Shown here: positions 21 through 23,909 of the stretch, in pieces | Layout: each line of letters opens with the position of its first letter | Numbering within the stretch: position 1 is the first letter of the stretch | From: Auricularia sp. M13 | Lineage: Eukaryota > Basidiomycota > Agaricomycetes > Auriculariales > Auriculariaceae | DNA length: 64,000 bases | Reading direction: 5' to 3' | NCBI GenBank assembly: GCA_037042915.1 | Contig: CM073197.1 | Location: 4,030,001 to 4,094,000 of the forward strand | The notes under the pieces: generated by a model | Seen by the model: the letters and a program-made list of their open reading frames with translations, nothing else | Databases searched by the model: none | Told to the model about the DNA's origin: nothing | Position numbers and translations under genes: made by a program

Positions 21-2414
21 GTGTCAGCTGATGAGTCAGACAGGAGAGGCAGTTCGGAGGCCACGAGAGCTGACGTGGCAGGCAATCAGGGAGATCCAAC
101 ACAAGTGGCTCTTCCGGATTCACCACTCAGCGATCTCGCTCGTTCGTCGAATACACCGTCGAATCACGGTGCTCGAGAGGTGAGTGATGAAATTGAAATC
201 GATGATGCCCGTCATCGAACGGATGCCCGCGGGAATGCGGATGCCCACATAGATGTGGATGAGGCTCGGGAAGAGAATTCCCCGACGGTCAGTACCGCGC
301 GGTTGGTTAGCGCAGGTATAGGTATGGCCGAAGAGCACATAGAGGGCAGTGTAGCTCAACTGGAGCGCAGCCCGCGTCGCGATAGATCCGCCCGTACGAG
401 TGACGGGCTGGAGGGCGGGTCGGTTGAGAACAGCACAGAGCGCTCGCTGTATGCTACGCCCGCACCTGAGCCCGTAACGCCACGTAGGCGTTATAGCGTA
501 GGACCGGGAATACACAGTCCATTCACGCATGAGGAGGCTGTGGATGCCCTGAGAAGCGGGCTGCGACTTTGGATTCTGGGAACTCGGATTCGCGCGCAAA
601 CTCCCTTTGAAGCCATTGAGCACGCGACCGAGACACGAGCGCGATATGGACTACCTGTTCGAACTCCAGTTACACCTCCAGCGTCAGTCGCAACAGCTCC
701 GAGCGAGGAGCTTAGTCCTGGATGGGTGACACAGCGAACAATTGCTGAGTTACCTCCTGTGACAAACGAGAACTCGGGAACGGCTAGCGCAACGGTTGTG
801 GAGGATTTAGAGACAACTGAGAAGGTTGACTCGTTCTGGGATTACGGGAAGATCAAGGACTGGTCGGCAGAGTTCGATTCGGACTCTTCGTCTGACTGGG
901 AAACGATGACCACGTCAACCCAGCTCGAGTATACGGATGCTGGGCGATCTTTGACGCCACTGGATGAGCTACCGCAATCCAGTCCACCTCGTCTGCCGCG
1001 CACTGTCGAGTTCGAGTTGGGGTCGGTAAAACGAGAGCCTGACGAGACCCTGATACGCGAGCACGCGCTCAAGACGCCGGTGAAGGGTATACCGATCTGG
1101 GGGTCGAGTACCGCGAGTAACAGCCGTGCGGTAATGACGAACAAAGCACTGCCGGGAGCGGTGCCAGTGCGCGCAGTCACTATTTCTAAGACCAAGGTAA
1201 AACGGGCGCGATCCAGATCCAAGTCGAAGTCGCGGAAAGCGACCAAAGATAAGGGCAAGGAAAGGGCTAAGACGCCCGAGCGAACACCATCCCCAGTGGC
1301 TGGACCGTCGACAGTACTCGAGAAAGAGACGGCGGTGCCGGTGGTGTTAGATCCAGGCGGTGACCATTCAGACGGCAGTACCGAGTCCAGCAAAAGTTCC
1401 AGAGCTCATAGACATAGCCATAAGCATCGTTCTCAGACCCAGGACCGGTCAAGTCGCCGCAGAAGCTCCCAACAGCAGTCCAGACCCATTACTCGAGCGG
1501 ATATCCCGTTGAGAGATCCCGCGGACAAGCTCAATAGACACAGCAAGCGCGCGCATACCGAGCGCGATGTACCACCTGGAGGATTATATTCGCGACGGTT
1601 GAATACACCTGGACCTGAAGAAAGAGTGCGCCGACGTAAGACGGTCGACACCGAGCCTTCGGACGATGGAAGTGGCAGTGACAGTGGCGGAACAAGTTCA
1701 TTCTCCGGTTCCGACTCGTCGAGCTCTAGTGGTAGAGAATATGGATCGTCCAGTGATGATCCTGGATCCTCTGGTAGCAGCAGTGAATCTGAGAACTCGA
1801 ATGAACTTCCTGATGAAGAAGAGTTGGAACGCCGGAAGCGTCGCGGCCGCACTGCACTTTGTAAAATGAAGATGGAAACGCCCAAGTACGACGGCAAAGC
1901 CGATTTGGATATTTTCGAAGCCTGGATATTCAAGTATGATACGTATTGCAGAGCTAAAGAACTGTATGGTTCATATGCTGTTGAAGCAATGGCCTACGCA
2001 CTCGAGGGAGAAGCGATGGCTTGGTATATGCGGCATGTTGCTCTAACCAAGCTAAAGAAATGGACAGTAGACCGAGTATACCGAAAACTGTACGAGCATT
2101 GCTTTCCCGTGCAGTTTCGTGATGATCTCCGCCGGAAGTTGCTTAAATCGAAGCAGAAAGGACGGGCAGTCAAGGACTATGCAAAGGACATCGAGAACCT
2201 CGCCGTACGTTATGCTGAGATTGATGGTTACACACGAAAGCGTATATTCTGGGATGGTGTCGATAATTATATTCGGATGTTTTGGCTCGAGAAGGGCCGC
2301 AGCGTGGATCGTGATAGTTATCGCACCTTGGTGCATTATGCTCAACGGGCAGAACTGCGCGAGCTGGAACGGAGACGAGGAGAAAGGGCCCAGCGGGAGG
2401 AGCCTGCTGAGTGA
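21..2414 (+). CDS. Retrotransposon Gag polyprotein
   Basis: A 797-residue frame at the left of the element. The first ~620 residues are low-complexity, rich in Ser, Glu, Arg and Pro, with RS-rich stretches around residues 395-420 and 460-480 and a Ser/Gly/Asp tract around 550-600. The last ~170 residues are the capsid-like Gag domain of fungal gypsy elements, recognisable from the YDGKADLDIFEAWIFKYD start and an alpha-helical remainder ending in charged residues. The CCHC zinc knuckle is not here; it begins the next frame. The long disordered N-terminus is unusual in length for the family. Assigned from family resemblance and from position directly before pol. Confidence 0.85.
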   Translation: MSADESDRRGSSEATRADVAGNQGDPTQVALPDSPLSDLARSSNTPSNHGAREVSDEIEIDDARHRTDARGNADAHIDVDEAREENSPTVSTARLVSAGIGMAEEHIEGSVAQLERSPRRDRSARTSDGLEGGSVENSTERSLYATPAPEPVTPRRRYSVGPGIHSPFTHEEAVDALRSGLRLWILGTRIRAQTPFEAIEHATETRARYGLPVRTPVTPPASVATAPSEELSPGWVTQRTIAELPPVTNENSGTASATVVEDLETTEKVDSFWDYGKIKDWSAEFDSDSSSDWETMTTSTQLEYTDAGRSLTPLDELPQSSPPRLPRTVEFELGSVKREPDETLIREHALKTPVKGIPIWGSSTASNSRAVMTNKALPGAVPVRAVTISKTKVKRARSRSKSKSRKATKDKGKERAKTPERTPSPVAGPSTVLEKETAVPVVLDPGGDHSDGSTESSKSSRAHRHSHKHRSQTQDRSSRRRSSQQQSRPITRADIPLRDPADKLNRHSKRAHTERDVPPGGLYSRRLNTPGPEERVRRRKTVDTEPSDDGSGSDSGGTSSFSGSDSSSSSGREYGSSSDDPGSSGSSSESENSNELPDEEELERRKRRGRTALCKMKMETPKYDGKADLDIFEAWIFKYDTYCRAKELYGSYAVEAMAYALEGEAMAWYMRHVALTKLKKWTVDRVYRKLYEHCFPVQFRDDLRRKLLKSKQKGRAVKDYAKDIENLAVRYAEIDGYTRKRIFWDGVDNYIRMFWLEKGRSVDRDSYRTLVHYAQRAELRELERRRGERAQREEPAE

Positions 2415-2549
2415 CCCAGTCGTGAGAAACCGGGGAGCGATTCCCGCAAACGGGCAGGACCCCGGACACGCTTCCGGAGTCGGCCCAAGGAGTCACATGA
2501 GACCCACGCCGGTCAATCCCGAAGTGCGGGGAACGCGTCTGTTCACGCG

Positions 2550-5500
2550 ATGGGTGTCAATCGTCGTGATAAGCCCAAACGCGGAGCCGGTGGAGAGCGT
2601 GGTCGTCAATCATCTCGATTGACACCAGAAGAATATGCCGAGCACCGAGCCAAGAAACTGTGTTTTACGTGTCACCAACCCAACCACGACGCCAGATCGT
2701 GTCCATTGAATAGAGAGGCCGAACCACGAGGTGCAAGAATTGCGGCAGTTGTGCCGAGTCGTAATCCAACGGTTGGGGACTCTGATAAACCCCGGGTTCG
2801 ACGCAAGAATCGCCCAGTGCCCGCGAGACTCGTGCGGCTCATGATGGCGATGCCCTCTGCCAACATCCCCATCTTCGACATCTCTCGAGCCAGCTCTGAG
2901 ACCATCACCTTGCTCATTAGGGCCGCGTTCGCCGATTGGCACCACGAGGGAACCGCGCGTCGCGCCGGCTACGACTCGCCGCTCGACCGTTGGTCGGTTG
3001 CCAGTCACGAGGCCCCGCAGGGCGAGTTCGTACCACTCGACACGTGGAACGTCTGGGATGAGCTGCATCACGGCTCTTATCTCATCCGCCGCGACGAGCT
3101 GGTGGTCGGACAGAGCGGTCTCGATGTGACGTCCTTCCTGCTGGCCGGACTTTCAATCCATCCCTCCGACGCCCACCGCGTCTTCGTAGCCAACCTTACA
3201 CCACTTCCGTGGGTGGACGACAGCGTGCCATACGAACAGGCGCACACCCTCATTCGCGGCTCCTTCCACCTCGTCACCGATTATGTCCACGCGCATTGGC
3301 TCGGACTGTCGCAGAGCGAGCGCTGGGTTGTCCAGTGCGATGCAATCGACATCTGGGTTCTGGACATCGCAACCAATCGCTGCTACCAGACGTCCGTCGA
3401 GCTACTGCGTAACGGGATTACGTTGTACGAGGTGCTCAAGTCGCCTGAATTCTTTAATAAGACGGGCGCGCTGGTGCGCAACAAAAGTTATCGTGGACCT
3501 GGAGATGACTCCCTCTACAGGTGCGCACCCATCTTCTCGCGTCAGCGCCTCAGCCCGGAGCTAACTGGCTCGTGCCAGACTCCCCTCCGCCTGAGCGCTA
3601 TCGTGCGATCGCTAGGCACTACGGTTGGAAACATCGGCAATCGGTTTTGCGCTTTGAGGACGACTACTTCCTATACCAGCACTCTTCCTTCCTTCAATCT
3701 CCTGAAAGGTCTCCTGGGCGTCGCTGCCACTACCTTGGACCCGACCTCGATGCTGCGGCTGCCGCTCTTCAGCTCTGGCTGGCGGATGGCGCTGTCCGCG
3801 CCGAGTACTCGGTTCCTGTGGAGCGCGGCGGTACACCCGTTCCAGCGGATCCGGTGCGGGCTAACAGCGATTCTCCCCCGCCTCTACTTTCCGTTTCAGA
3901 TTCCTCCGCATCTCAAGCTGGATCTGATGCGCGCGTCCCCGTCGGGGAAACGACTCAGATGCCCTACAAGATCTACTACAGCCAGCAAGAGTTCATCGAC
4001 GACATCATTGGCCAAGAAGCATCTTCGGACGCCGCTAGTAGCGTCGGCACGATCTCGCGCTGGACTTGGGCGGGCGAGCCTGCCTGCATTCGCAGCGGGC
4101 CCGGCGAGATCGGCACCCCTGCCGAAGAGACTTACGCGGCTTCTATCTGATGAGCGCGTCGATCACCCAACGCGGGTAGCTATGCGTGTAAAGAACGAGT
4201 CGAGAATGTTACCTATGCCTGTCGCTGTATCAGTTCTGATTAACGGCCAGGAATGTTCAGCCTTGATTGATTCTGGTTCCCTCACGGATTTCATGTCCAC
4301 GACCTTAGCGGATCAACTGAAGATCCCGCTGAGACGTAAGCGTGAACCGTTGGAGCTACAATTGGCAATTATCGGATCCCATTCAAAGGTACACGTGGAA
4401 TGTGATACTCGGTTTGAGTATCAAGGAATTAATGAGGTCCGAACTTGGGACGTAGCCAACGTCGATACGTATGACATTGTATTGGGAACACCGTTTATCT
4501 ATCAGCACTCTGTGATGATCGGACTCAATCCCACACGAGTATACATCGGGTCAAGGAAATCATTACCTCTGGAAGGGAAATCTATGTTGGTACTCCGTTC
4601 AGGATTGACCATGGTCGAACAGCTAGACATAGATGAGATGCGTCAGCAAATACATCGGGAAGCAAGTGATCTATTTTTATCGGCGGCCAATACCCCGTTA
4701 CCACCATTGCGAGCCATCAACCACGAAATACCCTTGAAGGATGAAAATAAAACTTATCCTTATAGGCAGTCTTTGTGCCCAGAGCCATGCAGGAAGCAAT
4801 GGATAGAGAAAAAGACGGCCTATTTGAATACTGGCAGATGGAAATACTCCGCGGGCGGAAACTGTTGCCCGCTCATGATCATTCCGAAGCCGAAAACCAA
4901 AGAAGGTGAATTGAGAATACGGACCGTCATAGATACTCGGCCACGAAACGCGAACACCATCAAGGTGGCGGCCCCTTTACCCGATATAGAAGAGATTCTC
5001 AGGGCCGTTGTCAAACGGAAGTATCGAAGTTTGATCGACGGAACGGATGCATATGAGCAAATTCGGGTGAAGCCTGAACACGTACCACGTACGTTGTTCA
5101 ATACTCCAGATGGAACTATGGTCAGCTTGGTCATGCAAATTGGGGATTGCAATGCGCCAGCTACCTACCAAACCTTGATGAATCATATCTTTGCTCCGTA
5201 TATCGGTGTGTTCATGGCCGTGTATTTGGATGACATCATCGTTTATTCGGACACCGCTGAGGAACATCTCAATCACCTCCGCACTATTCTTGATGTCTTG
5301 AGGAAAGAGAAATTTTACCTCAATCCCAAGAAGATGCAGTTATTTGCTGAAGAGCTCGACATTCTGGGTCACGTTATTGACGATCGCGGGATCAAGATGG
5401 ATCCGCGGAAGGTCGAAAGCGTGATTGCTTGGCCAGCGCCTACGAGTAAGGGAGCGCTTATGTCATTCCTCGGTTCGGTGGGGTTTTTGGCACCGAACTG

Positions 5501-8500
5501 CAAGGGAATCCGGATACCGATGGGGGTGCTCTCAGGCTTAACAGGCAGCACCAAAACGTTCAAGTGGACACCTACAACACAAAGAGCGTTTGACGAAGTG
5601 AAGCGAATTGTTCACGAATACCGGGATCGCCGACGGCATGCTCTCGACTACACGATGAAAGCTGGCGCGATCAATCTGGTCATTGATGCCTCATTAACTG
5701 GAGCTAGCGGATATATTTGCCAAGGGGATGACTTGAAAACCGCAAAAGTTATTACCTTTTGGAGCGGAAAATTCAATAGCGCACAACGGAATTATGCGAC
5801 TCACGAAAGGGAGTTGCTTGCGATAGTTGAATCACTGAAACGTTTTCGCTCACTACTGTTTGGTACGAAGTTTCGCATCTGCACGGATAACAAGAGCTTG
5901 GTTAGCTTCATGCAACAATCGGAAATGTCGCATCGGCAAGCACGCTGGTACGAGCTGATCAGCTCGTTTGATTTCAGCATCGAATACATCCCCGGGCCCG
6001 AGAATGTGCTCGCAGACGGGTTATCACGGATCTACGAGCGAGATCAAAAGGGAACCGTAAGGGATCAGGTTGAGTATGTACAAGAGAAACGGCATATACC
6101 ACCACCAGTTAGCGAGGACGAGACACCTCTGTCTAGCCAAGTATTCGTCGGACGGGCGGTGCTGATGAACGTGATGGCCGCACGTACTTTACGATCTCGT
6201 AAGACAATCCGGCAAGCCGAGATTTACGTAGCCAGTAGTTCGGCAAGCGACTCGGAGGGCGAAAACAGGATCATTCGCCGGTCGGCGCGTCTGAAGGGCG
6301 AGACCGCTCCGCCAGCACCAGAATTGCGTCTGAGACGTCCCAATCGGGTTACGGCCAGGACCGAAACGTCCACCGCGCAATCTGACTTGGAGGGCGAGGT
6401 GGTCACAAGGTCAGAGCCGCGTGGAGTGCTGGTCGAAAAGGGGTCAATGCCAGATGGAGAAAATGGCGGAACAACGGAAGCTGCGCAACGCACGATCGGT
6501 GGACCATCTGAGCAATCTGTGGCTGAATCGGGAGACAAGAGTTCCAACACTCGTCAACCCCAATCCGCCACTAAAAGTCAGCTTGAGAGTGAACAAACCG
6601 ACGATGTGCAAGAAGGCTTACCGGAACGGTCAGCAAACGATTCTATCGCGTACATCGCCGCGGAAAAGCCAGGGTTAGCCAAAATCATCGCTCAGAGCGT
6701 ACCGGAAATTGTACTAGAGCGCGATCTGGCGGGTCGATATGATCATGACAAGATGTTCCAGAAAATTTTGAAAGAACCGGCGGCGTACCGGAACTTCCGG
6801 GTGGAGGGCGAGGCAGGGCACCAACTTATTTTTCTGATTAGTGAACCTGGGCCTTTGCTGTGTATACCCGAAGTTACGGTTCGTGGCGTAAGAATTCGTG
6901 AGCATCTGATCGAGCAAGCACACTCGCTATTGGCACACCTTGGTGCCGAGAAGACTTTGACGTACCTGCGCAACGAGGTCTGGTGGAAAGAGATGACGAG
7001 AGACGTCAAGGATTACGTAGCGTCCTGTCAGACGTGTCAGACGACCAAGGATCGCACACAGCGCGTGTTTGGACAGCTGAGACCGTTGCCGGTACCCCGG
7101 AGACCATGGCAGGTGATTGGAATAGATTTCGTGGGACCACTGCCTAAATCACGTTTGAAGCATGCCTGGTATGACAGAATCTGTACTATTATTGACTTGT
7201 TCACAGCTATGGTTCACCTAGTACCAGTTCGAACTACGTACAAAGCCGCGGATATTGCGGAAGTCGTATTCGAGGCAGTTTACAAACTTCACGGCATGCC
7301 TGAAGCTATCGTTAGTGATCGGGATACGTTGTTTACCAGTTTGTTCTGGCAGCGACTCACCGAGCTCACCGGTACTCAACTGCGAATGTCGACGTCCTAT
7401 CATCCACAAACGGACGGTGCGACAGAAAGAGCAAACCGTACCCTGGGACAGATGATTAGGCAACGTGTGGCGACGGACCAGAAGAACTGGGCCGAGAAAC
7501 TCGCCTCGATTGAGTTCGCAATGAATAGCGCTACTAGCGCTACAACGGGGTTTAGTCCATTTTACCTGAACTACGGTCAGCATCCGCGAAGCGTGACCTG
7601 GGATCGGGACAGCGAATATCCCGGCGTCCAGAGGTTTATTGAGAGCACCCGTGAGGCGGCGATGGCGGCCCATGATGCCATTATCGCAGCACGAGTTTCG
7701 CAAACATACCATGCCAATAAACTGCGCCGGGATGCACCGTTCGAGAAGGGCCACTGGGTGTATCTGGATACCAAGAACCTTAGTATTCCGAAATACCACG
7801 CGCGGAAGCTCGTACCAAAATTTATTGGGCCATTTTTGATAACCAGAGTCACTGAACCTGGTAACGCGTACGAGCTGGAATTGCCGCGAGACATGAGGAA
7901 GCGCGGGATCCATCCGGTGTTCCACGCGGACCTGCTGCGCATGCACGTACCTAGCGATGACTCGCGGTTCCCAAATCGGAACTGGCAAGATGTTGTACTG
8001 TTACCCTATGAAAACAAACGCAAAGTTGCGGCTGAAATCGTTGGGATAATGGGAAAAGGACACGACTCACTTATTGCCGTTAAGTGGGGGGATGGGACCG
8101 TCACGCAAGAAAAGGCGTCCGATGTGGCGCACTTGCAGATATTCATTGACTACTGCGAAGCGCATGGAATCAACATGCGGCAACGGTTCGGAATTGAACA
8201 GGACACGGTACCGCAAAACCGTGCGGTACGGTTAGGCATGACTATGGTTCGAATGGGAATGCATGAGACGTGGCCGATCCTGCAAGAACGTGTTCAGAAA
8301 TCGCGGAACCAGTTGGCAGAATGGAAATATAAAAGGACGCACCCAGTTCGTGGAGATTCCTCATCGCACTTTCGAGTGCCTTCATGGACATCCTGGCGAC
8401 GCAGACGGTCAACATTCGCATCGTTCTCAATGCCGCATATCCGCCCACCCGGTTTCAGCGAGGAGGAGCACTACCTGTGCATCCGATGGGCGACTATAGC

Positions 8501-9551
8501 CCGCCACGCCCTGCTCGGACTACGTCCTCCCTCGACGACTCCGGCTCCAGCTCGGTATCGCGAATGGCAGGCGGTCAACCCGAGTTGCGAGGAGCAGGAC
8601 CGCGCTACGACGCTCATGCGCGAGATGGCCGAGGAGGACCACGAGCTCCAGCGCGCGCCGCGTCACTACGGACTGACAGCCGCCGCGCCTCCCGCTCCTC
8701 CGGGAACGTCCGCGTCGAACGACACCATTCGACTGTTCCTGGAGCACGCGGAGCGACTGCAGGAAACGCAGGCAGCGAGCGTGGTGAGGCCGACCAGACC
8801 CATGGAGGGACGCCTCGCGTTCCGACGGCCAGCCCGTCGTCCCGAGTATCGTACATCGACTTCCCACAGCGTCCACCGCGCGCATCCTCACCAGAGACTC
8901 ATAGCCGCCGCCCGGCGCAGCAGGGGAGGATCGTGGCGCAGGCCCGAACGGCCAGCTCGCGGCTCGCCTGGAATCGCGCGGGCAATTGAGCAGCTGCTTG
9001 AGGACTGTATCGCTGCGTCCCGGGAGCGCTCTGCTACCCCTCAGTACGATCCTATGACGCTGCGCACAAGCCAGCCGATGGGCGAAGGAGGGAGCAGCGG
9101 TCTCGGAGGGAGCAGCGGTTTCGCAGATGGGGCGCCGCAGTCAGCAACGACGGGCGAGGATCTGAACCGCGTACTCACTACTGCGCGCGAGAATTTTGAG
9201 GAACTACAGGTCATCAAACCCGAAGATCTTCGCTCAGTGCGCGTTGGCAATCGCGACGTACTCGTCTACATGCCTGCGCAGTGGAACCAGCAGAACGTGA
9301 GCCACGTGCTGGCACCGTTTATGATGCCTACTCACGTCATTGGGGATCAGCCCGTTCCCGCTACCCTTCCGTCCGAGGATGTGGCGATGGAATTTGCAGG
9401 TACAGGCACGGAGGGCGCGCCAACTGACTCGCGCGTGCGCCAAGTAAGCGGACCGGAAACGGAGGACGCCGCGCGCTCGGTTACTGAAGGCATCTTCGGA
9501 ATCAACCTCGGAGGAATTGGACCGGGAAATATGGTTACGCTTGGCAGCTAG
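2550..9551 (+). CDS. Retrotransposon Pol polyprotein (PR-RT-RNaseH-IN)
   Basis: A 2,333-residue frame. Visible parts in order: CCHC zinc knuckle (CFTCHQPNHDARSC, ~residue 38), an unrecognised segment (~90-530), aspartic protease (ALIDSGSLTDF, ~560), reverse transcriptase with YLDDIIVYS (~890), RNase H (~1040-1170), integrase H2C2 zinc domain (~1450), D,D-35-E core with HPQTDGATERANRT (~1520-1650), and a chromo-like tail near 1830. The final ~400 residues, after the chromo-like part, are Arg/Pro/Ser-rich and unrecognised. Together with Gag it would supply replication and integration of the element. Confidence 0.88.
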   Translation: MGVNRRDKPKRGAGGERGRQSSRLTPEEYAEHRAKKLCFTCHQPNHDARSCPLNREAEPRGARIAAVVPSRNPTVGDSDKPRVRRKNRPVPARLVRLMMAMPSANIPIFDISRASSETITLLIRAAFADWHHEGTARRAGYDSPLDRWSVASHEAPQGEFVPLDTWNVWDELHHGSYLIRRDELVVGQSGLDVTSFLLAGLSIHPSDAHRVFVANLTPLPWVDDSVPYEQAHTLIRGSFHLVTDYVHAHWLGLSQSERWVVQCDAIDIWVLDIATNRCYQTSVELLRNGITLYEVLKSPEFFNKTGALVRNKSYRGPGDDSLYRCAPIFSRQRLSPELTGSCQTPLRLSAIVRSLGTTVGNIGNRFCALRTTTSYTSTLPSFNLLKGLLGVAATTLDPTSMLRLPLFSSGWRMALSAPSTRFLWSAAVHPFQRIRCGLTAILPRLYFPFQIPPHLKLDLMRASPSGKRLRCPTRSTTASKSSSTTSLAKKHLRTPLVASARSRAGLGRASLPAFAAGPARSAPLPKRLTRLLSDERVDHPTRVAMRVKNESRMLPMPVAVSVLINGQECSALIDSGSLTDFMSTTLADQLKIPLRRKREPLELQLAIIGSHSKVHVECDTRFEYQGINEVRTWDVANVDTYDIVLGTPFIYQHSVMIGLNPTRVYIGSRKSLPLEGKSMLVLRSGLTMVEQLDIDEMRQQIHREASDLFLSAANTPLPPLRAINHEIPLKDENKTYPYRQSLCPEPCRKQWIEKKTAYLNTGRWKYSAGGNCCPLMIIPKPKTKEGELRIRTVIDTRPRNANTIKVAAPLPDIEEILRAVVKRKYRSLIDGTDAYEQIRVKPEHVPRTLFNTPDGTMVSLVMQIGDCNAPATYQTLMNHIFAPYIGVFMAVYLDDIIVYSDTAEEHLNHLRTILDVLRKEKFYLNPKKMQLFAEELDILGHVIDDRGIKMDPRKVESVIAWPAPTSKGALMSFLGSVGFLAPNCKGIRIPMGVLSGLTGSTKTFKWTPTTQRAFDEVKRIVHEYRDRRRHALDYTMKAGAINLVIDASLTGASGYICQGDDLKTAKVITFWSGKFNSAQRNYATHERELLAIVESLKRFRSLLFGTKFRICTDNKSLVSFMQQSEMSHRQARWYELISSFDFSIEYIPGPENVLADGLSRIYERDQKGTVRDQVEYVQEKRHIPPPVSEDETPLSSQVFVGRAVLMNVMAARTLRSRKTIRQAEIYVASSSASDSEGENRIIRRSARLKGETAPPAPELRLRRPNRVTARTETSTAQSDLEGEVVTRSEPRGVLVEKGSMPDGENGGTTEAAQRTIGGPSEQSVAESGDKSSNTRQPQSATKSQLESEQTDDVQEGLPERSANDSIAYIAAEKPGLAKIIAQSVPEIVLERDLAGRYDHDKMFQKILKEPAAYRNFRVEGEAGHQLIFLISEPGPLLCIPEVTVRGVRIREHLIEQAHSLLAHLGAEKTLTYLRNEVWWKEMTRDVKDYVASCQTCQTTKDRTQRVFGQLRPLPVPRRPWQVIGIDFVGPLPKSRLKHAWYDRICTIIDLFTAMVHLVPVRTTYKAADIAEVVFEAVYKLHGMPEAIVSDRDTLFTSLFWQRLTELTGTQLRMSTSYHPQTDGATERANRTLGQMIRQRVATDQKNWAEKLASIEFAMNSATSATTGFSPFYLNYGQHPRSVTWDRDSEYPGVQRFIESTREAAMAAHDAIIAARVSQTYHANKLRRDAPFEKGHWVYLDTKNLSIPKYHARKLVPKFIGPFLITRVTEPGNAYELELPRDMRKRGIHPVFHADLLRMHVPSDDSRFPNRNWQDVVLLPYENKRKVAAEIVGIMGKGHDSLIAVKWGDGTVTQEKASDVAHLQIFIDYCEAHGINMRQRFGIEQDTVPQNRAVRLGMTMVRMGMHETWPILQERVQKSRNQLAEWKYKRTHPVRGDSSSHFRVPSWTSWRRRRSTFASFSMPHIRPPGFSEEEHYLCIRWATIARHALLGLRPPSTTPAPARYREWQAVNPSCEEQDRATTLMREMAEEDHELQRAPRHYGLTAAAPPAPPGTSASNDTIRLFLEHAERLQETQAASVVRPTRPMEGRLAFRRPARRPEYRTSTSHSVHRAHPHQRLIAAARRSRGGSWRRPERPARGSPGIARAIEQLLEDCIAASRERSATPQYDPMTLRTSQPMGEGGSSGLGGSSGFADGAPQSATTGEDLNRVLTTARENFEELQVIKPEDLRSVRVGNRDVLVYMPAQWNQQNVSHVLAPFMMPTHVIGDQPVPATLPSEDVAMEFAGTGTEGAPTDSRVRQVSGPETEDAARSVTEGIFGINLGGIGPGNMVTLGS

Positions 9552-14651: not shown

Positions 14652-15309
14652 TCAGCACGGCTGAATGTCGCACGTTGGCCACACCCATGCCGCAATGCCC
14701 TCGTACGTGTACCTCCCCGTCGCAATCGCGGTATCCCTCTCCGCGGCGTCGATCGTGTAGAAATGATCGAACGTCGTGAACGCGTCGCCACGGTACAGCC
14801 GAAAGAGCGGCCAGCTCACGCACCCCGGCTCCGTCATGACATATCCGAGGATGCCCTCGTCTCTGAACTGCCCCGTCGCTAGAGCCGCGTCGCGCTCCGC
14901 CTCGTCTATGGTGTAGAAGTGGTCCCAATGCACCTTGTTGTACAGGCGGTAGAACTTGACGACGGGCGCGTCGGTCTGGCGCGGTCCACCGAAAACGCGG
15001 CAGCAGTCCTTTTCGCGGTGGTACTGGGGTCGTGCGTCGTCGATCTCGTACGGGCTGGTGGTGTAGAGGTGGTCGGTGTTGTAGGTTTCGTTGCTGTACG
15101 CGCGGTAGACGAGCTGTGGGGTTCCGATGCAGAAGCCGACCTGCTCGACGGTCACCGGCTAAGGTAGGCAGTGGTAGTCTCAGCTAGGGGTGAAGCACGC
15201 TATTGAGGGAGAGCTGTGGGCGTACCAGTTCGCCAACAGCTCCGCGGAATGCGAGGGCGGCAACGACGTGGGCAGCAGCGAGCGTCGCGGCTAGCTTGAA
15301 GAAAAGCAT
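14652..15309 (-). CDS. Secreted DUF5648 repeat protein, copy B
   Basis: Two exons, 15309-15226 and 15158-14652, with a GTACGC...TTAG intron of 67 nt in phase 0; 196 residues. The signal peptide MLFFKLAATLAAAHVVAALA matches copy A almost residue for residue. The mature chain has the same three HxYT repeats (TDHLYT, WDHFYTIDEAERDAA, FDHFYTIDAAERDTA) and ends CDIQPC. Conserved cysteines (GFCIG, KDCC, PGC, TCDIQPC) occur in both copies and fit an extracellular, disulphide-bonded protein. Identical intron position and phase support tandem duplication. Function unknown. Confidence 0.85.
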
Positions 15310-15389: not shown

Positions 15390-16185
15390 CCCCGCTGCGC
15401 ATCAAGCGGTCTTCAGCTGCGGGCGCCGTTACGGCGGCCTTTGGCGGCGTGGGTGCGGACGACTCTGCAGAGTCACAAGAGACATCATTTTCAAGCGCAA
15501 GGCGTGCTCCGTGCTCAGCGTGGAAAATTCAAAGCCGGTATATGAGGACTGTGAGGCCAAGAACGCGAAGCAGGCCGAGAGAGGGACATGTTAGGTAGGA
15601 CACATCCGTCAGGGATATCGGACACTCAGCCCTACAATTAAAGGGTTTCGAGTACAGTCGGGGCTGCCAATAGTCTAATCCAGGATACATGGGGGGAAGG
15701 CACCTGGCGTCGAATAGACAGTGGTCGTGGAGTGAAAGCGCGTATTTTAACCCGGATCAAGTCGTCAGGTAGGAGATGGCCTGGAGCATATGCGAGCTCG
15801 CATTTTTCACCATGTGTTCGTCATAAAGAGTGCATTTCTGAAGCAGTAAGAGCAGAAAAGCGGCTTGAGCGAAGCTCGGTGTGTGCCTGCGGCGCTGCGC
15901 CATGGCGCCGAGCCACGAGCGCCCGGCAAGCAAAGGAAAGAGCGAACGAGAAATGGAGCGAATGCAAATTTATCAAGCGTAGGATAGCCTCTATCAACGG
16001 TTTGGAGGAGAGCCAGCCTGAGCGCCGTGACAAGGTTAGAACTGGAATGATCATGAAGTTTGAAGACGCGAGAGCAAACTCCGACTCCGCAACTTGGCCT
16101 CTTGACATTTTTCGCTCTCAGTCTTCGGTCCATTGTACCGCAGGGACCGCCGTCGGTCCTTTCACATCACTATTTCATGCCCATG
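15390..16185. other. Intergenic with a dispersed repeat
   Basis: No supportable gene. A 164-residue plus-strand frame at 15,732-16,226 has no domain and runs into the snoRNA-host region. Bases 16,063-16,129 are the second copy of the repeat at 14,378. The promoter of the snoRNA host gene should lie here, but no convincing TATA box was seen. Confidence 0.4.
16063..16129. repeat. Dispersed repeat, copy 2
   Basis: Related to 14,378-14,455 in the order GACGCGAGAGCAAACTCCG ... CCTCTTGACATTTTTCGCTC. Same orientation, about 1.7 kb apart. Confidence 0.4.
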
Positions 16186-16384
16186 GTGAGTTTATTAGCC
16201 GCTTTCCGGCTGGTTTTAAGTCCTGACTCGCCTGAAGTCGTGATCTCAAGAGTGCGCAGCTCCTTGCTGACCATAACGTTACCGACATATCGCTCCCGCC
16301 ATAGTGGTCACTGAGGAGTCAGGATAATAAGATAATGTGAGTATATTATCTGCTATTCTTTTTTTTTCCCACTTCATGTCCCCT

Positions 16385-16464
16385 ACACGATGAGAAAAAT
16401 TTCACAACTCAGCTCACTACGACGCCGAAAGCGAAATGAATGGAATGATACTATTTTCTGACCT
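16385..16464 (+). ncRNA. Box C/D snoRNA 1
   Basis: Intron 1 of the array. Box C variant ACGATGA (16387-16393) and box D CTGA (16458-16461), 80 nt. The stretch before box D (ACTATTTT) resembles snoRNAs 3, 5 and 8, but the rest has diverged. Internal boxes are unclear and no rRNA target was recognised. Confidence 0.55.
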
Positions 16465-16647
16465 CCTTTCCTCCCTAAACCCCTTCCATCCTTATTTGAA
16501 CGCTTTCTAAAGCTCATATTTCTACAGACAGCTGGTCACGACGTTCCACAATTCGCCAGTGCACTTCCAAACCGTCTGGATATCTACCGTACGGAGCGTT
16601 GTACTCAGTTCGCCGATACCTGTGAGTATCTTCACTGTTTATCCCTT

Positions 16648-16736
16648 TACACGATGAACACCATATCACATTCACTAATATCGTTCTGAACATGCACTGC
16701 GCACTGTTGTTGAGTATTCTTCTGCAATTCTGACCC
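16648..16736 (+). ncRNA. Box C/D snoRNA 2, U96-like (5.8S rRNA guide)
   Basis: Box C ACGATGA (16651-16657), D' CTGA (16686-16689), C' TGTTGA, box D CTGA (16730-16733). The element before box D, TTCTGCAATT plus the C of box D, is complementary over 11 nt to 5.8S rRNA GAATTGCAGAA. By the D+5 rule the paired base is the G that equals human 5.8S G75, the known U96 target. The D' element was not matched. Confidence 0.75.
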
Positions 16737-16882
16737 TCCACTTTCCACTCGTACTCTTCGTCTCCCGCATGATACTAATCTTCGTCCGGATTCGTTGTCA
16801 ATAGTGGGCAAGTGTTAATACTCGTCTCCGGAAGCCATTGCGCCTTTGTGAGTCGTCACTCTTTGCATTCCACTTCATACCT

Positions 16883-16973
16883 TCCATGATGAGCACTTTT
16901 TATTCAAGCTCAACAATCTGAGGCGCGCTCGACGCCGCCGGTGTTGATCCATTCTTCTTCTATTTTCTGACCT
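16883..16973 (+). ncRNA. Box C/D snoRNA 3 (25S rRNA guide, type A)
   Basis: Consensus box C ATGATGA (16886-16892), D' CTGA (16918-16921), C' TGTTGAT, box D CTGA (16967-16970). The D' guide TCAAGCTCAACA (16904-16915) is the exact complement of TGTTGAGCTTGA, a universally conserved 25S/28S segment just 3' of the peptidyl-transferase entrance sequence GACCC. Predicted target: the second U of that segment, by the D'+5 rule. The D guide was not matched. Confidence 0.75.
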
Positions 16974-17122
16974 TCCATATCATCCTGTCCGATATCTCCG
17001 CTCATGCTGACGCTGTCCTAGGCCAAAGTGCAAGCCACAGCTCGAGGCGCAACCGAACCTTGGCTTTGCTCGCTCCAGTGAGTCTTTGGTTTCCGTATCC
17101 CAGCGTGGCCTGCGCGCCCCTT

Positions 17123-17201
17123 CGAGTGATGTATACACGTATTCAGAATCGCTCTGAAAGCGCCTCGCGCACAGCTGTGGAATCATTTACAATTCTGACC
17201 C
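17123..17201 (+). ncRNA. Box C/D snoRNA 4 (decayed U96-like, type B)
   Basis: Box C variant GTGATGT (17126-17132), D' CTGA (17153-17156), box D CTGA (17195-17198). The D' element TATTCAGAATCGCT is identical to that of snoRNA 6. The D element reads ATTTACAATT instead of CTTCTGCAATT, so the 5.8S pairing seen in snoRNAs 2 and 6 is lost. Confidence 0.6.
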
Positions 17202-17333
17202 TCCCATTTCCCAACGCCGTGCTCGTTGTCACTTTCCGGACCTTACTGATACGAGTTCAGCAGAGCCTGATCATCGATTGGCCTTCGCCGTCTGACATTT
17301 CAGCCCTGTGAGTATCCCTGCCAGTTCCCACTT

Positions 17334-17424
17334 TCTACGATGAGCACTCTTCATTCAAGCTCAACAATCTGAGGCGCGCTCGTCGCACCGCTGTTGATCC
17401 ACTCTTCTTCTATTTTTCTGATCT
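17334..17424 (+). ncRNA. Box C/D snoRNA 5 (25S rRNA guide, type A)
   Basis: Box C ACGATGA (17337-17343), D' CTGA (17369-17372), C' TGTTGAT, box D CTGA (17418-17421). Guide TCAAGCTCAACA is unchanged from snoRNA 3, while flanking bases differ. Confidence 0.75.
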
Positions 17425-17632
17425 TTTTAGCTTGCGTCCATCCGCTCGTTGCTGACGTCGTTGTCTTCATCCAGACCCGTCTAATCGTCGCGACCGCGCG
17501 TCGCGTGGCCGAAACTCTTCGTACATAAATTCTGCGAAGGAGACTGGCAGAAAGTGGGCTCGCTCACATGTAAGCATCTATCTAGTAGACTTCCCCGTCC
17601 AGCTTCCTCGCAGCACTCTTGTAAAAGAGTCT

Positions 17633-17719
17633 TGAGTGATGAATACCATATCACATATTCAGAATCGCTCTGAACGTGCCCCGCGCACAGTGTAGATTCT
17701 TCTTCTGCAATTCTGATCC
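17633..17719 (+). ncRNA. Box C/D snoRNA 6, U96-like (5.8S rRNA guide, type B)
   Basis: Perfect box C GTGATGA (17636-17642), D' CTGA (17670-17673), box D CTGA (17713-17716). The D guide TTCTGCAATT (17703-17712) repeats the 5.8S complementarity of snoRNA 2. Best-preserved B-type member. Confidence 0.78.
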
Positions 17720-17858
17720 CATGCGTCCTTTACCGCTCCTAATCTCTCTCTTGCGAATGGCTAGTTGCTCACGCGAACGCAGTACATGGCAGTGAAGACA
17801 AGCAAATGCAGTTGTGGCACAATTTAACACTGTGAGTAGGCCAGCCTTGACGTTTTTT

Positions 17859-17947
17859 TTTGTGATGTGCATGCATATCGTCTCGTGTCTTATGAGGGGC
17901 GCGCTCTGCGCTGACGTTGATTCATTCATTTCCTATGCATCTGATCC
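17859..17947 (+). ncRNA. Box C/D snoRNA 7 (divergent)
   Basis: Box C variant GTGATGT (17862-17868) and box D CTGA (17941-17944). The middle keeps GAGGGGCGCGCTC and GTTGATTC remnants of type A, but the D' box and 25S guide are gone. A possible new guide CATTTCCTATGCAT was not matched. Confidence 0.5.
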
Positions 17948-18128
17948 TTTGCTTGCCCTCGTACGTTCTTTCGCTGACTTTGTCTTCCTCCTGCAGGCAT
18001 GACTGATAATTGAGCCCGGCGAGCCGCGGTCAAGAGGACTGAAACCTGCGGAAATAAGCCGCTATCCACTTGCTTTCATGTGGCCCATTTGCTATCCGCG
18101 ACGTGAGTGTCGTAGCCCTGTCTGTCGT

Positions 18129-18217
18129 TTCGTGATGAGCCCTCTCATTCAAGCTCAACAATCTGAGGCGCGGTCCGCTTGTCGACGTTGAATTACTCTT
18201 CTTCTATTTTCTCACTT
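18129..18217 (+). ncRNA. Box C/D snoRNA 8 (25S rRNA guide, type A)
   Basis: Perfect box C GTGATGA (18132-18138), D' CTGA (18163-18166), guide TCAAGCTCAACA (18149-18160) identical to snoRNAs 3 and 5. The terminal box reads CTCA (18211-18214) rather than CTGA, so accumulation may be impaired. Confidence 0.65.
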
Positions 18218-18410
18218 CCACTTTTGTATCGAGTTCCGCGACATTTCCGTGCTGACGTCCTGTCCAGAGACTCGAAGCCACGTCCCTGGATAACGAGGCA
18301 CTTGGACGCGATCAAACGCGACGTCGTTGTCCACCCGTTATACATCGCGGGCCGCCGACTGGCTCACGACAACGTCCCCATCCGCTCCCCCCCTTTCTGT
18401 GCAAACGCCC

Positions 18411-18419
18411 TATATAAAC
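18411..18419 (+). promoter_or_regulatory. TATA box of the HAM1-like gene
   Basis: TATATAAAC lies 109 nt before the start codon, followed by a pyrimidine-rich leader. It separates this gene from the snoRNA host upstream. Confidence 0.7.
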
Positions 18420-18519: not shown

Positions 18520-21027
18520 ATGTCGAACCTCATGGACTTCCTCTCGAGCATTATGGCCGCGTCCAGCGCAGGCAAGCTGCCGTCGACGAAGCAGGCGAAC
18601 GCGATGGCCGACTGGCTCCTCGCGTCGCCCCTGATCCAACTCGAGTCGCCCCATGGCGGCAAGCTCAGCGAGCACGGCACGGCGGTTGTGCGCGATCTGC
18701 GCGAGCTCGTACAGGCGTACCAGGCCGCCGCGGCCGCGAAGAACGGCGACGACGTCCTGCAGGACGCGCTTTTCGAGCTCGCGCAATCCGATACCGGCGC
18801 TCAGACAGGAGAGGCGAAGGGCGAGGCGAAGGATTTCGCGGGCGCGGTCAGGCTCATGTTCGACACGGCGCTCAGCCACTTTGCGCGTGGCGACGAGTGG
18901 GCGAGTCTTGCGAGGTTGACCATAGCGGACGTCGCAGAGGTCGTCGAGGGCCAGGCAGGCGCGGCCAAGCAACACCTCCGCAGCACCGAGCGCGACGTTC
19001 AGGAGGGCACGCGTGATGCGATGGGGCGCACGAGCAGCGAGAAGGCGCAGGCGGGCGACGACAAGAGGCAGAAGTTCGAGAAGCGCATGGAGGCCGTCAA
19101 GACTGTCGGCGGGCAGGCGATCGGCGCAGGCCAGGATATCAAAGACGAGACGCGCCGTGTGGCGGACAACGCGTCTAGGCGGTTTGACGATGCGGTCTTT
19201 GGCGTGCGTCGTCTGCGCGTCTTGTCGTCTGTCTCCTGACGGCTTTGTCTGCGTGCAGATTGCGGAACGCGCCCAGAGCGACCCCGAGTACCGCCGCGCA
19301 GTCGACACGTGCTTCTCGCTCTACCACAAGTACATGGAACGCGCGCTCGACAAGGCCAAAGGCGTCGAGAACGGCGGCGTGTCCGACTTCGAGCGCCAGA
19401 TGGCCGACATCATGCAGGACCCGCGCGTTGCGGTTGCTCTGGGCAAGCTGCGCGTGCTTATCGAGCGCTTCGCCGGCGGTAAAAGCCTCGACGACCTCCT
19501 CACCGCGGCCGCGGCGTGCGCGACGGATATTCGCGAGGACGCCGATGTTCGCGCGTGGTTTGACGAGGCTGAACAGTTCGTGCGGCGCTCGATGGATGAG
19601 CCGGGCTTCTTGCGCTCGGAGGAGCGCGACAGGGACCGCGAGAATCTTATGGAGCGCTGGCGAGAACTGAAGAGCTCCGATACGGACGCCGGAAGGAAGT
19701 GGGCGGCGGATGTGCAGCTGCTGGAGAAGGAGTGCGAGATCTTCTCGGAGGCCATGCAGAGGGACGGGAATCTGCAGCGTCTCAAGGAGGCGCATGTTGC
19801 TCTCGGGAAGATGGCTGTCAACGCCGCGCCCACTGCAGGCAAGCTCCTCATCGGGCAGGCGGGGGGGTCATGAGCGACCTTACCGAGGTTCTTTTGCCGC
19901 GCTTGTTCTCGATGCTCAAGGAGATCCCTCTGCCTCGGTGCGTTTTGTCTTCATCGATGCTAGAGAGTTTGCAGGCTGACGCTGCGCGTGAACAGTACCG
20001 AATTCGTCGACGACGGTACTGAGGTCGTACTCCAGGACCTGACGTTCGAGAGCCTCAACCTCCTCCCCGGCCACGTTACGATCACGAACACGACGAGTGT
20101 CAACATCGACGCGCCGGCGGTAGGCCAAACCCAGCGCAACGTGTCGACCCGCACGCGCCTGCAGTTCACGGGCGTACAGATGCAGCTTAAGCAGGTGTCG
20201 TTCTTCTTCCACGACAAGTCGCTGCCCGCCGTCAAGACTGTCACCGGCCTCATGGACGTGACCATTCCCGAAAAGGGCGTGGATATGGATCTGACACTCG
20301 TTATGCTCCCTACTGCGACCGGCGCCGATGAGAGGCGCAAGCGCCACGGGTTCCATCGCGTCGAGAACGTCAAGGTCCATTTGGACGGCGTCAAGATTGG
20401 GATCAAGGAGAGCAATCACCAAGTTAGTACTCGCGTGCTGCTTCTCGTATCGATTTCGAGCGTCTGGCTGACTGCCCGCTCGGCGTATAGGTGCTGCTCA
20501 GCATGCTGAAGCCTATCATGCGTACCCGCCTTTCTGCAGTGCTTAGCGAGACGCTCGAGCAGTACACGCGCATCACGATGGAGGCACTGGACGGCATGGC
20601 GTGGGACGTGCACACGCGTGCGCAGGTCTTCGCCGACGCTGGTGCCCCTAGCATCCCGGCGTACATCAGCGGGCTGGTCAGCTTCTTCGGGCGTTCCACC
20701 GAGGGCAAGAGTGCGCTGGCGGACTTGACGACGACGAACGTCGGCGTCGTCAAGGAGCTCGAGGGCAAGAATAAGGCATTCGCGATCGGCGCGGGTCCGC
20801 AACTTGTTTCGGGCGAAAAGCACGGGCCTGTGGCGACGAGCTCGCGCGCGGCGTTGACTGCTACGGACGCGCACAATAAGGCTGCGCTCGCCGCGCCCGC
20901 GCCGAAGATCGAGGGGTTCACTGAGGCGTTGACGCGGAAGAGGGATGCGGAGAAGGGCGTGTCGGGATGGAGGACCTCCGCGTACGACTTGCCTGCGTAT
21001 GCGCACCTGAGCATGAAGAAGGTTTAG
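18520..21027 (+). CDS. HAM1-like protein (HAM1_N/HAM1_C family)
   Basis: Four exons: 18520-19203, 19259-19937, 19996-20422, 20491-21027, with introns of 55, 58 and 68 nt and CTGAC branch sites; about 775 residues. The N-terminal two thirds is alpha-helical, with LEA-like amphipathic repeats around residues 150-230. The junction EIPLPR|TEFVDDGTEVVLQDL and the following beta-rich segment match fungal HAM1-like proteins, whose C-terminal half resembles BPI/SMP lipid-binding folds. Role inferred: membrane-lipid association; named after hyphal anastomosis genes. Odd point: exon 2 needs one extra base at a run of seven G (19861-19867); with eight G the frame runs on as GVMSDLTEVLLPRLF. Either an assembly error or a real frameshift. 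Confidence 0.8.
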
Positions 21028-22301: not shown

Positions 22302-23909
22302 TTATGACACCGCCCGGCGCGGCAAGTTCGACTTGGCCTTGTTCTTGATGACCACCCCGCGAGTTATAATCTTCGGCATGGTACCACCGTCCTTCGAAAT
22401 GGAGAGCCCCAACCTGGTCTTCAAGACGCGTGCTAGGTCGGTCGCAAAGACAAAGGGGAGATCTTGAAGGGAACGCGACGCGAAATATTCCTCGTCCTTC
22501 TCCAGGACGACCGCGTCGAGTCTCAGTGTAGATGCTCCAGGCAGTGAAGCAACAGCCGGCGAGTCCAAAGGGGTGAGCATTCTCCGCGATCCGCTACTAG
22601 ATACGAGGAACTTGAGTTGCGTGACTGCAGGGAGGGTCGCAAGGAGCGGCCAGAAAATCTCCGGGAAGCACTGGTCGGAGACGACGACAGCGGTTACTAT
22701 GGGAAAGGGTATGTCCGCCAGCACGCGGCGCAGGTCCTTCTCCACCAGCGCGCATTCGCGGGAGAACCCACGGTCAGCATCGCTGAGCACCAGTCGATAT
22801 CCCTGCCAGCCCGCTGCGAGAAGCGACAATGTGCGCGGGCGCATGGCCGCGACCTCCGCCAGGACGTCCTTGGCAATGTGCTTGGTGGGCCACATCAGCC
22901 GCACGCGCGGAATCGCGTGCAGCTCGTAGGGCGGGAGCTGCATGATTCTGTCGTCGGGCGACTCGTGGCCGAAGGTGAAGGACTGCAGACAATGGGACAG
23001 GCCGTGACTCGGAACCTCTGGACAGTATTCCAGAGAACCATAATTCGGGATATGGAGGTACTCGAGGCTGGGAAATAGGGTGAATATGCGCGGTGTCCAG
23101 ATTGTTGAAGGATCGATATTGAATTGGTGTCCCACCACGAGCTTTACGACGGAGGTGAGCGGGTCCATATTCTCAGGTAGGACTGGGAGGGCTCCCTCTA
23201 GAGAGAGGGACTTCAGTCCCGGAACTCTGAATCCATCGTTAAGAGAAAGGCCTTGATGGTTCGTGCGATTGAGGAGTGCCAGATCCTCCAGGAGCGGGGC
23301 AGGACTGCTGATAACCCTGCCAAGCCGTTCTAGCTGTTCGGTACGCGGCATAAATTCTAGGTCAAGTGAACGCAAGCGGCCGACTATGGTCGGATAGACG
23401 CTACAGAATGCATCCAGGTACATGCCGTATGCGCCGTAGACTTTGAGGTCTACTGGATGGTCGCCGGACCAGCTCAGGATTTGTTGTAGGAACCCCGGAT
23501 TCGACCAATAAAGAGCATCAGGATCGTCTCTAGCTTTATAGTTGTGCTTAGATACGAGTTTTAGACGGACCCAGAGGCGATGGTCCGACGTTGCTGCGGT
23601 ACGCCAGTAGCGACAGACGCGCGCAAACTGCACGCGGTCCTTGCATGGAAGGTGCAGAAATATATCAGAAAGAACCGTTTGAGGAAGTAGGTTCGCTTGA
23701 ACAGTAGCATTCCACCGCTGCGCGGCATGGGCGAGAACGGCGTGGACTGCGGCGGCCGCGTGCCCTACGGTTTCAACTGCATCGATTCTACAACCATAAG
23801 CCGCGCAGAACAGCCGCAATAGACAAGGCTTACTCTTTTCGCCCTTTGAATGCGGCGTTGCAGAATAGCTGCAGATATCGTTCGAGTTCGGCCTCACGTG
23901 CGGGAGCAA
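22302..23909 (-). CDS. F-box/LRR-type protein
   Basis: An open frame of 535 residues. The F-box lies at ~72-115 (LLPQTVLSDIFLHLPCKDRVQFARVCRYWR...HRLWVRL), followed by ~400 residues of irregular leucine-rich strands (RLRSLDLEFMP, LEDLALLN, LKSLSLEGALPVLP, LEYLHIPNYG). Such proteins bind Skp1 through the F-box and present targets to an SCF ubiquitin ligase. The start is uncertain: no Met lies between residue 1 and the F-box, so the first ~60 residues may be leader or an unrecognised first exon. Agaricomycetes carry many members of this class and the target cannot be inferred. Confidence 0.75.
   Translation of the reverse strand: MLPHVRPNSNDICSYSATPHSKGEKSKPCLLRLFCAAYGCRIDAVETVGHAAAAVHAVLAHAAQRWNATVQANLLPQTVLSDIFLHLPCKDRVQFARVCRYWRTAATSDHRLWVRLKLVSKHNYKARDDPDALYWSNPGFLQQILSWSGDHPVDLKVYGAYGMYLDAFCSVYPTIVGRLRSLDLEFMPRTEQLERLGRVISSPAPLLEDLALLNRTNHQGLSLNDGFRVPGLKSLSLEGALPVLPENMDPLTSVVKLVVGHQFNIDPSTIWTPRIFTLFPSLEYLHIPNYGSLEYCPEVPSHGLSHCLQSFTFGHESPDDRIMQLPPYELHAIPRVRLMWPTKHIAKDVLAEVAAMRPRTLSLLAAGWQGYRLVLSDADRGFSRECALVEKDLRRVLADIPFPIVTAVVVSDQCFPEIFWPLLATLPAVTQLKFLVSSSGSRRMLTPLDSPAVASLPGASTLRLDAVVLEKDEEYFASRSLQDLPFVFATDLARVLKTRLGLSISKDGGTMPKIITRGVVIKNKAKSNLPRRAVS

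Follow-up and report, generated by a model that had tools for sequence, protein, structure and literature searches.

In animals, the GAS5 and UHG genes serve as hosts of small nucleolar RNAs (snoRNAs): their exons are noncoding, and snoRNAs lie in many of their introns. The closest fungal systems have been described in Neurospora crassa, where introns, in coding as well as noncoding hosts, house 45 of 55 C/D snoRNAs and six clusters are recognized. The hosts of clusters I–V in that species are UHG-like and contain short open reading frames (ORFs) alone, the distances between snoRNA and 3′ splice site resemble those of Drosophila, and the snoRNA genes are mostly singletons (PMC2780460). Fungal clusters I (snR78-72), II (snR57-55-61), and III (snR41-70-51) are intronic in all Basidiomycota studied (PMC3596301). 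Most fungal snoRNAs have been said to be independent units (PMC12309372), and an Rfam-based survey of Pleurotus ostreatus lists seven snoRNAs (PMC5040776).

The locus described here lies in a window of 64,000 nucleotides (nt) from the basidiomycete Auricularia sp. M13 (contig CM073197.1, positions 4,030,001–4,094,000; window coordinates are used throughout, and features are on the + strand unless stated otherwise). It carries one C/D-like element in each of eight consecutive introns, I1 to I8, between 16337 and 18267. Judged from the sequence, the locus is very probably a spliced noncoding host gene whose introns are its products and whose guide families are partly redundant or decaying. We consider this reading the best because the units are genuine and some are repeats of one another, their guides match ribosomal RNA (rRNA) in six of eight cases, two of the three predicted targets fall on sites listed as methylated in other organisms, and the exons lack a coding signal. 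The same facts support an earlier note on this DNA, which had proposed a dedicated noncoding host.

One C/D element in each of eight introns

The presence of a C/D element in each of eight introns is confirmed. Nine 5′ splice sites of the form GTRAGY, all in one orientation, occur at 16186, 16337, 16622, 16848, 17078, 17308, 17570, 17832, and 18103. The eight introns that start at the last eight of these sites each combine GTRAGY and YAG with a single C/D element, and seven of them also contain a CTRAY branch-point motif. With the 3′ splice sites chosen, intron lengths are 165–195 nt; alternative sites exist for I1, I4, and I6, the last of which would then measure 213 nt. Box D lies 48–71 nt from the 3′ splice site in all eight (53 nt in I8). 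Thus, the eight tandem introns of this length range claimed in the earlier note, each with one unit, were borne out when coordinates were re-read, as was the spacing of box D when it was re-measured.

Intron I1 (16337–16531, alternative 3′ end 16527) begins with GTGAGT, and no CTRAY motif separates its box D from the AG. GTGAGT likewise opens I2 (16622–16804; CTAAT 16775, AG 16804), I3 (16848–17021; CTGAC 17007, AG 17021), I4 (17078–17260, alternative 3′ end 17263; CTGAT 17246, AG 17260 or 17263), I5 (17308–17474; CTGAC 17452, AG 17474), I7 (17832–17996; CTGAC 17974, CTGCAG 17996), and I8 (18103–18267; CTGAC 18252, CCAG 18267). The signals of I6 (17570–17764, alternative 3′ end 17782) are GTAAGC, CTAAT at 17739, and AG at 17764 or 17782. 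An additional candidate, intron 0 (16186–16304, alternative 3′ end 16322), lies upstream of I1; it starts with GTGAGT and has YAG at 16304 and 16322, but holds neither a C/D element nor a box C.

From the start of box C to the end of box D, the elements span 73–85 nt: 16387–16461 (I1), 16651–16733 (I2), 16886–16970 (I3), 17126–17198 (I4), 17337–17421 (I5), 17636–17716 (I6), 17862–17944 (I7), and 18132–18214 (I8). Every box C is within one mismatch of RTGATGA. The full consensus is found in I3 (ATGATGA), I6, and I8 (GTGATGA), whereas I1, I2, and I5 have ACGATGA, and I4 and I7 have GTGATGT. Box D reads CTGA in seven units and CTCA (18211–18214) in I8. The boxes reported earlier therefore stand insofar as a C-like and a D-like motif is present in all eight units, but not as complete consensus motifs throughout. 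The further claim that most units have internal D′ and C′ boxes agrees with a D′ box CTGA in I2–I6 and I8 and is uncertain for I1 and I7, in which D′ is unclear.

The clustering of these motifs was compared with dinucleotide shuffles of the region (n = 500). To count as strict, a unit needed a box C differing from the consensus in no more than one position, together with CTGA, a 5′ splice site, a branch point, and a 3′ splice site at set distances; the thresholds were chosen after the locus had been read. Six strict units were counted among the eight introns on the + strand of the region, whereas its − strand and both strands of the rest of the 64-kb window had none; the shuffles gave a mean of 0.002 and a maximum of 1. 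I1 falls outside the strict set because it has no CTRAY branch point, and I8 because its box D is CTCA instead of CTGA. Without the intron conditions, nine C–D pairs were found (seven real units and two accidental pairs) versus a shuffle mean of 0.93 and maximum of 6, and none of the 500 shuffles reached nine. A sequence-only model, R1, gave seven units and no others in the window, and missed I1, which is likewise among its rows; the seven are the model's own rows, and the informative part is the absence of other units.

Guide families and predicted rRNA targets

The earlier note had counted one snoRNA per intron. There are indeed eight units, but they are not eight independent snoRNAs, as six of them form two families of three: type A (I3, I5, and I8) and type B (I2, I4, and I6). 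I1 is of a type of its own, and I7 also stands outside both families. Identity between element bodies is 0.77–0.90 in five of the six same-type pairs; in the sixth, I2/I4, it is 0.65, within the cross-type range of 0.57–0.66 (random, 0.49). The type B grouping is based on I6 and on common guides. We also considered I7 as a diverged type A element. Its body is 0.61–0.63 identical to type A and 0.60–0.64 to type B, so overall identity favors neither type; the sole link is a 22-nt stretch 77% like I3, and the assignment was not retained beyond a "perhaps".

Similarity is concentrated in the elements. The intron flanks of same-type pairs, with I7 counted as type A, are 0.38–0.68 identical, and the first 60 nt of the exons that follow paralogous introns are 0.42–0.54 identical, where random sequence gives 0.49 with a standard deviation of 0.04. 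The earlier description of the exons as unlike one another thus holds. I3, I5, and I8 share an invariant 26-nt run that spans the D′ guide and the D′ box, and 6 of 20,000 column permutations matched it. The order of units is I1-B-A-B-A-B-I7-A, with spacings of 451 and 794 nt between type A and 465 and 518 nt between type B elements; from this order and these spacings, we infer that a B-A intron pair was probably duplicated in tandem. Guide loss within type B is complementary: I2 lacks the large subunit (LSU) rRNA guide, I4 lacks the 5.8S guide, and I6 has both. As far as the letters of the locus tell, there is partial redundancy among the copies, and some of them are in decay.

Guides were sought as pairing of at least 10 bp with rRNA beside D or D′, covering position 5; such pairing was found for I2, I3, I4, I5, I6, and I8. 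It should be noted that the rRNA sequences are proxies: Agaricomycete 5.8S and 5′ LSU sequences came from papers (Bjerkandera LSU from PMC12287172), and complete Agaricomycete 18S and 28S sequences are outside the set.

The type A D′ guide consists of 12 nt ending 2 nt before the D′ box (16904–16915 in I3, 17355–17366 in I5, and 18149–18160 in I8), and all 12 pair with LSU rRNA in three sequences, L001, L002, and L006. Of 5000 shuffled guides, 8 reached 12 in 28S rRNA, and 11 did so when any of three rRNA targets was allowed. The D+5 rule places the predicted target at the U that follows the G in UGUUGAGC. Arabidopsis 25S rRNA is listed as methylated at G2392, G2396, G2410, U2411, and U2422 (PMC8053127), and all five anchors fit the bases in the three sequences. 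The target corresponds to Arabidopsis U2411 and to N. crassa Um2372, given that N. crassa Um2383 equals Arabidopsis U2422; it lies 11 nt before the snR78 site in both species. N. crassa Um2372 is the target of CD20 (PMC2780460, Table 1). Because the pattern used to fetch LSU sequences contained the type A target, the Rfam LSU consensus, which was fetched independently of that pattern, was checked at both LSU sites, and it also carries the type A target.

The type B D guide, TTCTGCAATT at 16720–16729 in I2 and the guide at 17703–17712 in I6, pairs at 10 of 10 positions with fungal (Bjerkandera) 5.8S rRNA. When 5.8S rRNA alone is considered, 1 and 4 of 5000 shuffles reached the match. Its target is G74, in the Bjerkandera sequence as well as the RF00002 consensus. 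In human 5.8S rRNA, G75 is methylated under the guidance of U96, and this position is common with the type B D target. G74 lies 32 nt after A42, just as Arabidopsis G79 lies 32 nt after A47; Arabidopsis A47 equals N. crassa A42, and therefore G74 equals Arabidopsis G79. G79 is listed as methylated in Arabidopsis (PMC8053127), where A47 belongs to SnoR9, and Am42 (CD29) is the sole 5.8S entry in the N. crassa table (PMC2780460). A literature search for 5.8S guides in basidiomycetes, which did not cover the main fungal snoRNA survey, listed a single paper, about microRNA-like RNAs, and nothing to the point.

The type B D′ guide, TCAGAATCGCT at 17143–17153 in I4 and the guide at 17659–17669 in I6, pairs at 11 of 11 positions with Bjerkandera LSU rRNA, in agreement with the Rfam consensus; 0 and 1 of 60 shuffles reached the match. 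The predicted target is an LSU A located 32 nt before the snR39b G (N. crassa Gm785), i.e., approximately N. crassa 753 and Arabidopsis ~782, assuming no insertions between. The snR39b anchor was set by fitting five published sites (G, +2 A, +12 A, +71 A, and +103 G), which leads to the G of UUUGGGUAUAGGGGCG; the fit occurs at three places in the Bjerkandera stretch, of which the one in the snR39b region was taken, and it holds in L006, not in L002. A placement of this target beside Arabidopsis U803 / N. crassa C776 was ruled out, as it had rested on a wrong anchor. The site appears in neither the N. crassa nor the Arabidopsis methylation list in the sections drawn on (PMC2780460; PMC8053127). 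Thus, of the three predicted sites, two are already listed as methylated elsewhere.

Searches for rRNA also yielded observations of their own. An LSU pattern had three matches in the genome contig collection, all of them eukaryotic LSU in bacterial bins, one contig also holding 18S and 5.8S. The bin of L006 is titled Thermodesulfobacteriota, and its sequence is eukaryotic ribosomal DNA with three group I introns, probably a contamination. LSU, 5.8S, and 18S patterns each had 0 matches in the viral contig collection. Plasmid records gave 461 matches, and among the 20 matches listed, all were named bacteria or archaea, a further record with 80–90% identity being outside these 20; all 17 matches in phage records were named phages or bacteria.

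Host transcript, processing and competing explanations

The putative host transcript extends approximately over 16090–18410, both outer ends being guesses; TATATAAA lies near 18411, before the next gene. Across 24 splice isoforms, the longest ORF has 45–96 amino acids. The length of 96 was reached by 47 of 200 shuffles, and the codon score of this ORF, trained on two stretches of the neighboring HAM1-like gene, is negative, although both other frames score lower. Pfam gave nothing over the cut-off for it (best E 0.16). These results agree with the earlier claim that the exons are noncoding.

In the mechanism that we propose, RNA polymerase II would make the host transcript, and the spliceosome would remove at least eight introns, as their splice signals suggest. 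The box C/D core of each intron would bind the proteins of C/D small nucleolar ribonucleoproteins (snoRNPs), which are Snu13, Nop56, Nop58, and fibrillarin, and exonucleases would trim the debranched intron to an RNA slightly longer than the 73–85 nt that run from box C through box D. Type A (I3, I5, perhaps I8) is predicted to guide LSU 2′-O-methylation at the equivalent of N. crassa Um2372 / Arabidopsis 25S U2411. Within type B, I2 and I6 would direct methylation to 5.8S G74 (Arabidopsis G79), and I4 and I6 to the LSU A that precedes the snR39b site by 32 nt. I8, with CTCA for box D, is possibly inactive.

The way in which the elements are arranged within their introns bears on processing. 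Terminal stems are missing from all eight elements (0–2 of 5 flanking pairs), and none has an external stem beyond chance at the 5% level. D′–C′ hairpins that had looked conserved by eye were also rejected: of seven folds, none was better than its shuffles at the 5% level (best z −1.45, 15/200). With the CTRAY nearest to the 3′ splice site taken as the branch point, 26–51 nt separate box D from the branch-point A in seven introns. The pyrimidine fraction is 0.73–1.00 after box D in all eight introns and 0.67–0.80 before box C in seven (0.33 in I6), the region having 0.59. Darzacq and Kiss are said to have reported in 2000 that processing without a terminal stem exists. The absence of a stem in all eight units, together with the close branch point in seven, suggests that what ties snoRNP assembly to splicing is probably the position of the element and not a stem. 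In vertebrates, expression of C/D snoRNAs is associated with a stable terminal stem; a stem can compensate for a place more than 40–50 nt from the branch point, and most expressed intronic snoRNAs are farther than 40–50 nt from it (PMC10234308). A more specific model, in which two tandem-amplified guide families underwent complementary loss (I2 keeping 5.8S, I4 LSU, and I6 both guides) and depend, stemless, on their place 26–51 nt before the branch point, is put forward as tentative.

Several observations weigh against the host gene reading. The missing stems and the vertebrate association of stems with expression have just been given, and the changed box D of I8 belongs here as well. The earlier note had proposed a covariance-model search for C/D snoRNAs; run with Rfam, it returned no match at gathering score in the 64-kb window. 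A permissive Rfam search of 2.8 kb gave three matches (E 2.8–3.5), of which solely plasmodium_snoR20 fits a unit, I1, and non-significantly (18.4 bits, E 2.8, gathering 45). No convincing match in the proxy rRNA was found for the guides of I1 and I7 or for the type A D guide, TTCTTCTATTTT, which is kept in three copies (16955–16966, 17405–17416, and 18199–18210). L001–L003 were fetched by an LSU pattern containing the type A target, and L003 is part of L006; the LSU loci thus amount to three sequences and are no independent sample. None of the Agaricomycete LSU sequences compared reaches the type A site. When all rRNA is considered, shuffles of the type B D guide reached the match in 131 and 178 of 5000 cases, and in 9 and 15 of 60. 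The invariant-run test was non-significant for type B (858 of 20,000 for I4/I6, 2665 for I2/I6, and 3575 for all three). The evidence for constraint comes from paralogs within one locus alone: no fungal relative was found, and the exact type A pattern had 0 matches in the genome contig collection. Its one match in the viral contig collection is a coding-like stretch that, by eye, has no snoRNA boxes, and was set aside as chance.

Other explanations of the locus have to be weighed against a separate noncoding host. The snoRNA introns might be part of an extended 5′ untranslated region belonging to the HAM1-like gene downstream, which is on the same strand and whose start codon, at 18520, lies 253 nt beyond the end of the last snoRNA intron. 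This is unlikely, in our opinion. TATATAAA, noticed by eye ~110 nt upstream of that start codon, suggests that the HAM1-like gene has a promoter of its own and therefore makes a separate host likelier than a shared 5′ leader; moreover, fungal clusters I–V have UHG-like hosts with short ORFs (PMC2780460). It is quite unlikely that the array consists of once active snoRNAs that are mostly no longer expressed. Such decay would fit the CTCA of I8, the guides lost in I2 and I4, the lack of a guide match for I7 and I1, and the absence of terminal stems, but it does not fit the retention of boxes and guides in I3, I5, and I6, or the invariance of guide and D′ box in I3, I5, and I8, most flanks being near random.

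Introns within a protein-coding gene are a very unlikely explanation. The 96-residue ORF does span several junctions in some isoforms, and its frame scores least negatively, but its length is within the reach of shuffles, its codon score is below zero, and it has no Pfam match over the cut-off. The chance that short motifs have merely clustered at random is negligible: the boxes are short, loose C–D pairs number 33 on the + and 25 on the − strand of the window, and the strict thresholds were set post hoc, but six strict units stand against 0.002 expected, and chance would account neither for paralogous bodies nor for guides directed at listed modification sites.

Surroundings, significance and comparison with described hosts

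The HAM1-like gene downstream of the host occupies 18520–21027; HAM1_N is found in two ORFs and HAM1_C, below the cut-off, in a third, the gene being presumably split by introns. Upstream of the host, an ORF on the − strand (14652–15155) contains a DUF5648 domain. Farther away, a retroelement (21–9551, +) has a gag-like ORF and a 2333-residue ORF with reverse transcriptase, RNase H, integrase, and a Tf2-1-like SH3 domain, as in Ty3-type long terminal repeat elements; its gag and protease matches are below the Pfam cut-offs. Two ORFs on the − strand, 22302–23909 and 58278–60089, contain F-box domains, and of the 15 tandem-repeat rows in the window, 13 are located within 39381–45385, with periods of 7–34.

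Hosts of this type are missed by protein-centered annotation and, here, by Rfam too. The locus yields methylation predictions for the ribosomes of this fungus at 5.8S G74, at the LSU equivalent of U2411, and at the LSU A lying 32 nt ahead of the snR39b site. Its paralogs display stepwise guide loss. The locus also constitutes a natural test of whether snoRNAs can be processed with branch-point position in place of a terminal stem. If the predictions are true, the locus provides a fungal guide for 5.8S G74, which the N. crassa table does not list, and another for an LSU site so far unlisted in the sources drawn on.

Individual guides have counterparts in other organisms. CD20 of N. crassa and snR88 of S. 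pombe have the target Um2372 in common with type A by the D+5 rule; CD20 is listed once and uses its D guide, whereas type A uses the D′ guide, the comparison being made by target and not by sequence. Analogously, SnoR39BY of Arabidopsis (G79) has its 5.8S nucleotide in common with the type B D guide, as compared by target alone.

With respect to the host as a whole, the likeness to animal GAS5 and UHG genes is one of architecture alone, a comparison already drawn for fungi (PMC2780460). As in the noncoding hosts of N. crassa, C/D units are intronic and exons contain short ORFs; unlike in those hosts, compared here as whole clusters, two guide families are repeated inside one gene. Clusters I–III are similarly intron-encoded, with poorly conserved exons that lack long ORFs (PMC3596301). 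The three sites assigned here differ from those of clusters I–III in Table 1 of PMC2780460, a table in which snR57 and snR70 are absent; a member of these clusters may still be hidden among I1, I7, and the D guide of type A, for which no target was assigned. The earlier statement that UHG-type and fungal intronic hosts are known is thus documented in both papers (PMC2780460; PMC3596301), and the Auricularia locus belongs to this known kind of noncoding intronic snoRNA hosts, Basidiomycota included, from whose members it is set apart by a differing guide set and by its paralogs.

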